From Leptospirales bacterium (GTDB lineage Bacteria > Spirochaetota > Leptospiria > Leptospirales > Leptonemataceae): a DNA stretch of 64,000 nt. The position numbers and the translations under genes are program-made. Positions 32,805 to 35,802 of this stretch are shown in pieces (position 1 is the stretch's first letter; every line of letters begins with the position of its first letter). Location: the NCBI GenBank assembly GCA_016788865.1, contig JAEUSB010000003.1, positions 1 through 64,000 of the forward strand, read 5' to 3'. The notes under the pieces are model-generated. The model had not been told where the DNA came from. It did no database searches and saw only the letters and a program-made list of their open reading frames with translations.

Positions 32805-34094
32805 TCACTGCTGGTCGGTTTCAATCTTATAAATGCGCACCGGGAAGTCTTTTCCTCTGAGCATTACTTCTCCCAGCGCCCCGAAGCTTTCTGTATTCCT
32901 AACGCGCTGTTTAACGCTTTCTGAGACAATGATGTCGGTGTTGAATTGTTTGCACAGTGATTCCATGCGGCTTGCAATATTGACTGTATCTCCGATTACC
33001 GTATACTCCAGCCGTTCCCGCGTACCAATGTTGCCCACGATCGCTTCGCCAAAATTAACCGCGATACCATGAGCTAACTCTTGCTGATTCTTTGCGCGTT
33101 GATTGGCGTTGAAATCGACAAGCGCCCGCCGCATGCCAATTGCCGCCTGGACAGCGTTCTGGGCATCGTTTGCCGTTTGCGTTGGCGTTCCAAATGTTGC
33201 CATGATTGCATCGCCAATGTACTTGTCCAGGGTCCCGCCATTCTGAAAGATCACATCAACCATACAGGCGTGATAGTTGGACAGAATTTCTACGACTTCC
33301 TCTGGTGAAAGAGACTCGCTGAGTTTGGTAAAGCCGCGAATGTCGCAGAACATAACTGCAACGCTTCGACGTGTTCCTCCTGGTTTGAGGAAATCTTCGT
33401 CGGCTGAAGTAATTTTCTCTGCAACCCCGGGAGAAAAGTAGCGTTCCATTTGCGATTTGTCTTTTTCAAGTTGAACGGCGCGCCGCACGGTTACGCGCGC
33501 AATATACGTAAGGTAGGTAAGCGCGAAACACCCGAAGAATAACGGGAGTACAATATGCACGGCGAAATACAGGAAGAAACTCACCCCGTTTCCAAGCAAG
33601 TGATCAACGAACGAGTCTGTGTTCATTCCAGCCTGGATTCCAATTGAATAGACGAAGAAACCTATCTGGCTGATCGTGAAGCCGATTCCTACAATTGCAG
33701 GATAGAGTGGTCTGAGCGCAAAACTGTTAAGAATCATCAGGCCGGCGCTGAAAGTGTAGATTGTGGACTTCAATAAGAAGGCCGGTGAGACTTGCGTTCC
33801 GCCCACAGCCAGATACCAGATGATTGCAATGACGGTTAGGAAGACACAATCTGTCACTGCACTTGCAGAACCAATCAGAGTTAAGTGCGCTCTTTTTCGA
33901 ATCAGGAAGAGGAAGAAGAGCAATAATCCGATGACTACGAATGATGTAATTCCGCCATAAACCCGCTCGAAGTGGGTCGCCTCAGGCGAAAAGCTGCCCG
34001 CAAGCATTGTCAGGAAAAAAACAATCTTCAGGATCAGGGAAACGCGAAGGCCTGAATACTCTCGTTCTAGAAACAGGCCTTCTGTTCTGGTCAT
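32805..34094 (-). CDS. Membrane-bound class III adenylate/guanylate cyclase (429 aa)
   Basis: Six hydrophobic segments fill residues about 18-205, followed by a linker (KDKSQMERYFSPGVAEKI) and a class III cyclase catalytic domain from about 235 to 410. The VAVMFCDIRGFTKLSE block supplies the first metal-binding Asp, and GGTLDKYIGDAIMATFGTP supplies the second. IAVNFGEAIVGNIGTRERLEYTVIGDTVNIASRME is the conserved nucleotide-binding and transition-state region. All expected catalytic blocks are present, so it should make cAMP or cGMP at the inner membrane. It lies 40 bases downstream of two voltage-gated channel genes on the same strand, and an operon is likely. Confidence 0.92.
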   Translation of the reverse strand: MTRTEGLFLEREYSGLRVSLILKIVFFLTMLAGSFSPEATHFERVYGGITSFVVIGLLLFFLFLIRKRAHLTLIGSASAVTDCVFLTVIAIIWYLAVGGTQVSPAFLLKSTIYTFSAGLMILNSFALRPLYPAIVGIGFTISQIGFFVYSIGIQAGMNTDSFVDHLLGNGVSFFLYFAVHIVLPLFFGCFALTYLTYIARVTVRRAVQLEKDKSQMERYFSPGVAEKITSADEDFLKPGGTRRSVAVMFCDIRGFTKLSESLSPEEVVEILSNYHACMVDVIFQNGGTLDKYIGDAIMATFGTPTQTANDAQNAVQAAIGMRRALVDFNANQRAKNQQELAHGIAVNFGEAIVGNIGTRERLEYTVIGDTVNIASRMESLCKQFNTDIIVSESVKQRVRNTESFGALGEVMLRGKDFPVRIYKIETDQQ

Positions 34095-34134
34095 CTTGTG
34101 GCTAATCGACGTGGTTGGGCCACCGTTTACGTTC

Positions 34135-34953
34135 TCAGAGTTTCTTCAGTTGCTTGTTCAGGGCTTTTATCTGGTCGCGCAGACGTTCCAGATTCTGCTC
34201 AATCACAGCAACTCGCACTTCAGTGCTCTCAACTGGTGCGTCTATTCCCTGTGCCTCCATATCCTGACGGGTCTCCTCTTCCTTGGCGCTTTCCATGGCA
34301 CCCACGATAATTCCAAATAAGAGGTTCAGTGTAGTGAAAGTTGTCAGGAGGATAAATGGAATGAAAAACATCCATGCGTTTGGCACTTTCTCCATAACAG
34401 GGCGTGCAACATCCGGCCAACCTTCCATAGTCAGGAACTGGAAAAGAGTGAAGAAACTCACGCCCAGATGTCCAAAAAATTTAGGCTCTGCCTTCCCAAA
34501 GAAATTTGTCGCCATGATTGCTGCAACATAGAACATTACGAAGAGGACTCCACCAACCGACGCCGTACCCGGGATTGCGGCGAACATTCCGTTTATAACC
34601 CTTCGCATGGACGGAATCGCGGTGACCAGGCGCATAAGACGAAATACGCGAAGCGCACGCAAAACGGAAAGCGGACCGGAGGCCGGAACAAGCGCCACGG
34701 CAACCACAACGAAATCGAAAACATTCCATCCATCCCGGAAGAAGCTGAGTCGCTGGGCGATCAACTTGAGCACCAGCTCAAAGCAAAAGATAAAAAGGCA
34801 TATGTGATCCAATACTTCAATAATATGATGGATGTCCGGCGGTAAACCCTTGAAGGTGAGTATTCCCAACGCGAGGGCGTTGAAGAGAATTGTTCCAATG
34901 ATGAAGCGTTGGAAGAATTGTTTTTCTGGAAGTGAAAGAATAGAAGCGAGCAT
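34135..34953 (-). CDS. Single-domain voltage-gated cation channel, filter TMEGWPD (272 aa)
   Basis: A BacNav/CavMr-type channel subunit. S1-S6 fall at about residues 17-33, 48-66, 77-90, 95-112 (S4), 130-152 and 195-222. S4 carries Arg99, Arg102, Arg105 and Arg108 at every third position, the voltage sensor. The pore helix leads to the selectivity filter TMEGWPD (175-181), where Glu177 gives the high-field ring. Sodium-selective bacterial channels usually have LESW; a Gly after the Glu is found in the calcium-selective CavMr, so calcium permeation is plausible (inference). The C-terminus (about 240-272) is a coiled coil that would assemble four subunits. The gene follows a paralogue after three bases. 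Confidence 0.9.
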   Translation of the reverse strand: MLASILSLPEKQFFQRFIIGTILFNALALGILTFKGLPPDIHHIIEVLDHICLFIFCFELVLKLIAQRLSFFRDGWNVFDFVVVAVALVPASGPLSVLRALRVFRLMRLVTAIPSMRRVINGMFAAIPGTASVGGVLFVMFYVAAIMATNFFGKAEPKFFGHLGVSFFTLFQFLTMEGWPDVARPVMEKVPNAWMFFIPFILLTTFTTLNLLFGIIVGAMESAKEEETRQDMEAQGIDAPVESTEVRVAVIEQNLERLRDQIKALNKQLKKL

Positions 34954-34956
34954 GAC

Positions 34957-35802
34957 TTATTTCCCCTTGCCTGAACGGCCTGTCTTGATCAGCCTTTGCA
35001 GGTTGTTTTGAAGCGCGGCGAGATCTGCAACCGCTTCCTTTATGTTTTTTTCTATTAGAGCGAGTCGCACTTCAACCTTTTCGGGCGGCGCGTCGATACC
35101 CTGCGCTGACATCTCTTCCCGCGCCGCCTCTTCCTTGGCCTCTTCCATTGAGTTAACTACGATACCAAACACGAGGTTCAACGTGGTGAATGTAGTCATT
35201 ACTATGAATGGAATGAAAAACAGCCAGGCCAGCGGAGACGTTTCCATGATTGTGCGAGCCATGTTCGGCCAGCCTTCCGTCGTCATAAGCTGAAAGAGTG
35301 TGAAGAAGGCAGGACCAAGCCCTCCAAAATTCTCCGGATCGATTTCCCCGAAGAATCCGATGCCCATGACGGCGGCCACATAGAAGATTACGAGAAGTAT
35401 TCCAGCGACGGACGCAACACCCGGAATAGCCCCAAACATACCAGAAATTACCTGACGCATGGAAGGAAACGCGGTGACCAGACGCATGAGTCGAAACACA
35501 CGCAATGCCCGCAACACTGATAGCGGACCGGCCGCCGGCGCAAGTGCTATGGCCACTACCACGAAATCGAAAATGTTCCAGCCATCCCGAAAAAATCCGA
35601 CACGCAGGGTAATCAGTTTTAGCAGTATTTCAATACAAAATACAATCAGGCAGGCATGATCGAGCCAGTGTAAAGCATCGACGATGGCCGGGTCAAGATC
35701 AGGAACTGTTAGGATTCCAAGGATGGCCGCGTTCAGCAGGATCACCCCGATAATTGCATTCTGAAATATGCGATTGGCCAATAAGGCTTCGATAGCTTTC
35801 AT
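34957..35802 (-). CDS. Single-domain voltage-gated cation channel, filter TTEGWPN (281 aa)
   Basis: A paralogue of the downstream channel, with the same S1-S6 plan and a very similar sequence in S3-S4 (RDGWNIFDFVVVAIALAP) and in the pore. S4 Arg98, Arg101, Arg104 and Arg107 form the voltage sensor. The filter is TTEGWPN (174-180), with Glu176, Gly177 and a final Asn where the other has Asp. The C-terminal helix is followed by a short basic tail (KTGRSGKGK). It is the first gene of the minus-strand group: channel, channel, cyclase. Two subunits made from one mRNA could form homo- or heterotetramers with different ion selectivity. Confidence 0.9.
   Translation of the reverse strand: MKAIEALLANRIFQNAIIGVILLNAAILGILTVPDLDPAIVDALHWLDHACLIVFCIEILLKLITLRVGFFRDGWNIFDFVVVAIALAPAAGPLSVLRALRVFRLMRLVTAFPSMRQVISGMFGAIPGVASVAGILLVIFYVAAVMGIGFFGEIDPENFGGLGPAFFTLFQLMTTEGWPNMARTIMETSPLAWLFFIPFIVMTTFTTLNLVFGIVVNSMEEAKEEAAREEMSAQGIDAPPEKVEVRLALIEKNIKEAVADLAALQNNLQRLIKTGRSGKGK

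Follow-up and report, generated by a model that had tools for sequence, protein, structure and literature searches.

The locus described here raises the question of whether two paralogous voltage-gated channel genes, lying in tandem in a bacterial genome, encode two kinds of subunit of a single heteromeric channel or two separate channels, and whether the nucleotide cyclase gene that follows them belongs to the same system. The window, by which we mean the whole stretch of 64,000 nucleotides of a Leptospirales bacterium that was analysed, carries the three genes on one strand, with the following features:

34957..35802, minus strand: channel subunit A, 281 aa, a six-transmembrane voltage-gated cation channel and NavMs-like BacNav (open reading frame list, Pfam and structure match)
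34135..34953, minus strand: channel subunit B, 272 aa, a paralogue of A with orthologues in nine other loci
32805..34094, minus strand: membrane class III nucleotide cyclase, 429 aa, a neighbour judged to lie outside the conserved unit
35263..35283, minus strand: selectivity filter of A, TTEGWPN, residues 174-180
34411..34431, minus strand: selectivity filter of B, TMEGWPD, residues 175-181
35470..35526, minus strand: S4 voltage-sensor helix of A (sequence and alignment)
34618..34674, minus strand: S4 voltage-sensor helix of B (sequence and alignment)
34987..35073, minus strand: C-terminal coiled-coil helix of A, residues 244-272, with acidic e/g flanks and a heptad repeat whose a/d positions are hydrophobic, the A/B-fixed residues lying at e, g and a
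34138..34221, minus strand: C-terminal coiled-coil helix of B, residues 245-272 (heptad alignment), with Arg at one e position in all nine aligned B sequences
34951..34967, minus strand: A-B junction, comprising AGGGGA, a Shine-Dalgarno-like stretch at the 3' end of A, the TAA stop, GTC and the ATG of B

This layout, with 3 bp between the stop of A and the start of B and 40 bp between the stop of B and the start of the cyclase gene, agrees with the positions, strand and spacing given in an earlier note on this DNA, and the two filters are exactly those read there. A and B share the same reading frame in the window and are 61% identical over 271 residues. Both are intact, full-length six-transmembrane subunits with the hallmarks of BacNavs: the Ion_trans domain of Pfam (E 5.8e-44 for A and 3.3e-41 for B), a charged S4 helix in which the alignment shows all four arginines to be present in each protein (R98/R101/R104/R107 in A), and a T-x-[E/D]-x-W filter. 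Among solved structures NavMs (5hvx) lies nearest to both, at E 3.8e-70 for A and E 1.7e-73 for B.

About 85,000 named prokaryote genomes were scanned for the pair and read ORF by ORF and, with the addition of one further genome, G078, this survey yielded ten loci: the window, a Spirochaetia MAG (a Lac Pavin record, G001), a Thiomargarita MAG, three Magnetococcales MAGs, an Azonexus MAG, two Alphaproteobacteria MAGs and G078, which belongs to the class of the Magnetococcales locus L038 and carries a more diverged pair. They cover about five deep lineages, Spirochaetota, Magnetococcia, Thiomargarita, Azonexus and Alphaproteobacteria, the two alphaproteobacterial loci being near-identical, and such recurrence is far beyond chance. 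Orthologues of A, like those of B, are present in all nine of the other loci, the gene order is A then B in 10/10, no lone A or lone B was found in these loci or in the scan, and in each of the nine genomes searched in full this clade is represented by a single A and a single B. The distinct paralogous subunits always occur together (10/10 loci), an organisation that resembles that of CatSper. Lone relatives with the filter TLEGWPD do occur in Azospirillum, Pseudooceanicola, Pseudorhodobacter and genomes from the order of L042, but these group in a sister clade of their own.

The pair is rare. It turned up in 2 of the 48 genomes from the window's class, in 4 of 48 from that of L038, in 1 of 200 from the family to which the Azonexus MAG belongs and in 1 of 43 from the order of Thiomargarita. 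The named records that carry it are all metagenome-assembled genomes, in which single occurrences may be mis-binned contigs. This patchy presence over distant taxa suggests that the intact pair has spread by horizontal transfer. No relative of the channels was found on viral contigs, and plasmids yielded only relatives below 60% identity. As judged from its distribution, the A-B unit is one that persists or spreads as a pair. In G078 the diverged pair (contig C391, locus L140, 4425-7578) has DUF4337 proteins as its neighbours on either side, and S4 is eroded in both channel copies (FRVVDTLPS and LRLMEMVEEV), with the filter and the pairing kept.

The junction of the two genes consists of the stop, one codon and the ATG in seven of the ten loci (window, L037, L038, L040, L042, L043 and G078), of a 4-bp ATGA overlap in two (L028 and L041) and of a 24-bp gap in the remaining one (L039). 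Tight junctions of this kind are typical of translational coupling, and A and B would be expressed from a single transcript with coupled translation. Readthrough of the stop codon to yield a fused two-domain channel, which the shared frame of A and B in most loci would allow, was also considered and was rejected: the stops are of two kinds, TAA and TGA, with no common context, and the ATGA overlaps of two loci are out of frame, so that coupled re-initiation provides the simpler explanation.

The origin of the pair was traced in a maximum likelihood tree of 53 channels, from which CavMr itself was left out, AnclNav-like relatives from the window's family (filters TLEGWIE, TLEDWTD and similar) acting as stand-ins. 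A and B each form a clade (support 100/99 for A and 92/86 for B, the latter under the star threshold) and are united with support of 100/92, and the single TLEGWPD channels are sister to A+B (98/82). The whole TxEGWP group nests beside NavMs (99/96) and apart from the AnclNav-like channels (100/100), and smaller trees agree with this topology, from which A and B are to be read as clades arising from one ancient duplication inside the NavMs-like BacNavs; no subsequent loss of an A or B copy was found in the loci surveyed. Within A and within B the branching is similar and the distance matrices correlate (r 0.92, nine pairs), as is expected for joint inheritance, and purifying selection acts on both genes between the two spirochaete species (dN 0.12 for A and 0.10 for B, with dS saturated or about 2). 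The window's genome encodes a second channel, AnclNav-like with the filter TLEGWIE, on contig C1 at 46.2-47.1 kb (L029, 8246-9106) beside a response-regulator-like gene; it is L001 of the tree, where it lies apart from A and B. The same genome also holds a second ion-channel tandem (contig C92, about 64.3-67.4 kb; L005 and L007), in which a gene for a voltage-sensor-like S1-S4 with a later HAMP-like region, and no pore seen, is directly followed by one resembling a cyclic-nucleotide-gated K+ channel, with a TIGYGD filter and a cNMP-type C terminus.

The filters add to this history. A carries TTEGWP[N/S/T] in seven of the ten loci and TLEGWPD in Azonexus and the two Alphaproteobacteria, and the final Asp of the B filter is kept in all ten. 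In the branch of Spirochaetota, Thiomargarita and Magnetococcia, A has TTEGWP[T/S/N] and B has TMEGWPD (TSEGWPD in G078). TLEGWPD, which is present in the single channels and in both subunits of the Azonexus and alphaproteobacterial pairs, is probably the ancestral filter, and its occurrence in both members of some pairs implies that the filters became asymmetric only after the duplication. Since A and B share one filter there, asymmetry at the filter was not what first gave rise to the pair.

One duplication, obligate pairing in a fixed order over about five lineages, tight junctions, and A/B-fixed residues in the pore and the tetramerisation helix together lend strong circumstantial support to the heteromer that the earlier note had raised as a possibility, and they fall short of proof; we assign a probability of roughly 0.55 to the reading that A and B join in one heteromeric channel, probably permeable to Ca2+. 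On this reading, A and B would stem from an ancestor of the TLEGWPD type, presumably a homotetramer, whose gene was duplicated once in tandem long ago, and their coupled translation from one transcript would feed assembly of a heterotetramer, in the simplest case with two A and two B alternating. Depolarisation would move the four S4 sensors and open a pore whose lining includes one filter glutamate from each subunit, positions 4 and 6 of every filter being Gly and Pro; position 7 would form an asymmetric ring in the lineage of the window, with Asp supplied by B and Asn, Ser or Thr by A. The genes themselves, their pairing and order, the phylogeny, the purifying selection, the filter residues and the lack of conservation of the cyclase are direct observations, whereas the single transcript with its coupled translation, the co-assembly, the 2:2 stoichiometry, the permeability to Ca2+ and any physiological role are inferred. 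That different BacNav monomers can mix is illustrated by NaChBac, of which the wild type and mutants co-assemble when co-expressed (PMC7764494).

The main rival explanation, which we rate as less likely, is that A and B form two separate homotetramers with different gating or selectivity, both useful and expressed together. Characterised BacNavs are described as homotetramers (PMC6487023, PMC7764494, PMC4225499), and A and B both look complete, with four S4 arginines and the filter Glu. It also counts against the heteromer that co-transfer follows from adjacency alone and that both genes would be retained if both homomers were needed. However, neither gene was found without the other in the ten loci, and this pairing argues against a BacNav-type homotetramer of one gene product as the form in which A and B operate.

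The residues that distinguish A from B bear on the same choice. When nine A sequences were aligned with nine B and gap-free columns compared, 11 columns were found to separate 9/9 A from 9/9 B, in addition to a C-terminal tail present mainly in A. Six of them lie in the 24 columns of the C-terminal coiled coil against five in the other 245, a suggestive enrichment in the assembly helix (Fisher p 9e-5, or p 0.002 among variable columns only, in a test that ignores phylogenetic non-independence), and the other five lie in S1, the pore helices (L172/F, M173/L and 184 variable/P) and S6. When a and d are assigned to the hydrophobic residues of the heptad, five of these six coiled-coil columns fall on e, g or a and one on f; it is the e, g and a positions of a heptad that set partner choice. 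In NavMs the C-terminal helices of the four subunits, which show a heptad pattern, pack into a four-helix coiled coil that stabilises the tetramer (PMC3791462). This clustering of A/B-fixed positions in the assembly helix and pore speaks against two homotetramers, as do the e/g flanks of A, which carry a charge of -2 to -3 in 9/9 sequences (-1 to +1 in B) and are predicted to be repulsive between A subunits in Magnetococcales. On the other side, the g-e' pairs of B:B coiled coils score at least as well as those of A:B, and by a simple g-e' charge count the mixed tetramer beats two homotetramers only in Magnetococcales and Azonexus, the two being equal elsewhere, including in the window species. 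An AlphaFold model of A (21-row alignment, pLDDT 61, pTM 0.39) has a helix at 243-277 at low confidence, and both this model and one of the read-through A-B fusion (pLDDT 51, pTM 0.26) are too poor for an interface to be judged.

A still less probable alternative is that one copy, most likely A with its altered filter, conducts poorly or acts as a modifier and serves to tune its partner. A has lost the otherwise conserved filter Asp7 in one subclade, and the voltage sensors of both copies in G078 are degenerate although the pairing is kept, but the A of the window retains the filter Glu, Gly and Trp and all of the S4 charges, and the arrangement would in any case constitute a special form of heteromer.

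Concerning the ion carried by the proposed heteromer, the earlier note was right that Gly after the filter Glu is seen in a calcium-selective bacterial channel: in CavMr, with the filter TLEGWVD, this Gly4 is the key determinant which, together with Val6, sets Ca2+ selectivity (PMC7041947). The difference that it pointed out at the end of the filter, Asn in A and Asp in B at position 7, is real and partly conserved, but D7 is dispensable for the Ca2+ selectivity of CavMr, where D7M retains a PCa/PNa of ~144, and filter swaps between CavMr and NavAb gave no current (PMC7041947). Position 6 is Pro in both A and B. The A pore aligns gap-free at the filter with domain I of Cav3 (TLEGWVD), which is the best match of the window's A pore among eukaryotic domains, while pores of the NavMs type require an additional residue. 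The analogy with CavMr and with domain I of Cav channels makes the A/B pore probably Ca2+-permeable, a property that is likely, if not assured, in a NavMs-type frame.

There remains the cyclase. It carries the Guanylate_cyc domain PF00211 (E 1.5e-26, Pfam) in a class III catalytic region that follows an N-terminal membrane region, and its CDIRGF and DKYIGD motifs, including the metal-binding Asp residues, align with adenylate cyclase 2w01. The earlier note had suggested a coupling of voltage or calcium to cyclic-nucleotide signalling, perhaps for motility; in favour of a signalling operon are this architecture and the position of the gene on the same strand, 40 bp from B. In G001, a genome of the same genus, the channel pair lies in the same synteny without the cyclase: the order common to both is a YfhO-like protein, an LTXXQ-type small protein, A, B and an opposite-strand gene of 134/135 aa, and in G001 the end of B is separated from the oppositely oriented 135-aa gene by 50 bp with no cyclase between. 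The orthologous cyclase of G001 (70% identity) is located on another contig beside a NUDIX-like gene, and for that locus the window's genome holds a matching empty site on contig C25, with both DNA flanks directly joined (blastn, L147 4048-4313 to L148 4991-4726 and L147 4420-7749 to L148 3325-1). From these comparisons the cyclase has moved between sites within the genus, in one direction or the other. The relocation of this single gene left clean empty sites both ways and no obvious mobile element (L147 4048-4420 versus L148 3325-4991).

The window's 4.9-Mb genome contains 71 class III cyclase domains (PF00211), about one per 69 kb, a density at which a chance neighbour is plausible; several of these domains lie in very long open frames of up to 2509 aa. 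No cyclase was seen beside the other pairs whose neighbours were inspected (L037, L040, L041, L043 and G078), and there is no conserved third partner in those loci or the window, where the neighbours are unrelated (FGE-sulfatase, hybrid histidine kinase, RsmI methylase, argininosuccinate synthase, DUF4337 and YfhO). The survey of relatives for the same three genes, which the earlier note had advised, thus found the two-gene A-B unit kept and the three-gene unit not, linkage of channel and cyclase being absent from relatives. The note had named a failure of the three genes to stay together in relatives as a refutation, and by this criterion the unit of three is refuted and that of two confirmed. 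Relocation within the genus, the abundance of cyclase domains and the lack of cyclases at other pairs leave a signalling operon of all three genes highly improbable, and the suggestion of motility found no support. As a candidate partner of the channel the cyclase is rejected by synteny (G001 and the empty site) and by the abundance of such genes; on present genomic evidence it is a chance, recent and lineage-specific neighbour and not a coupled effector.

Bacterial Nav and Cav channels serve as structural models for eukaryotic excitability. Their homotetrameric state has been named as their main limit in this role, and asymmetry has been built into them by artificial concatemers (PMC6487023, PMC7764494). 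A search of the literature, confined to open-licence papers, turned up no voltage-gated cation channel of a prokaryote that is heteromeric by nature. The novelty would lie in the paired, probably heteromeric arrangement of BacNav subunits, and we see about an even chance that the A-B pair is the first natural example, with a 2+2 pore under selection across several bacterial lineages. If so, a natural two-subunit bacterial channel would supply asymmetry directly, it would show by what route a single duplication can turn a homotetramer into an obligate heteromer, and it would offer a small system for studying the influence of mixed filters on the selectivity for Ca2+ versus Na+. It would also be a living example of the passage from identical to different subunits, the kind of step that eukaryotic Ca2+ and Na+ channels must have gone through before their pores became asymmetric.

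Among known systems, NavMs of Magnetococcus marinus and the NavMs-like BacNavs are nearest, as the best structural match of A and B and their sister group in the tree; they share the 6-TM fold over its whole length, the S4 charges, the Glu-x-Trp of the filter and the heptad C-terminal coiled coil. NavMs is, however, a single-gene homotetramer with the filter TLESWSM, whereas A and B, two paired paralogues, carry Gly and Pro at filter positions 4 and 6 and are one residue shorter after the filter. CavMr and the other ancestor-like BacNavs (AnclNavs) resemble the pair in Gly at position 4 and, for B, in Asp at position 7, a likeness that suggests Ca2+ permeation (PMC7041947), but A and B fall with NavMs, away from the AnclNav-like channels and outside the AnclNav/CavMr group, so that their Gly4 filter arose separately, by convergence. 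In the sense proposed here, CatSper1-4 of sperm offer a parallel in which different single-domain subunits form one asymmetric Ca2+ pore, and the filters of CatSper3/4 have Gly4 as do those of A and B (PMC7041947); CatSper is eukaryotic and has four subunit types together with accessory proteins. Two-pore channels and the four-domain Cav/Nav channels likewise build an asymmetric pore from non-identical repeats, but these repeats are fused in one chain, whereas A and B are two genes split by a stop codon.
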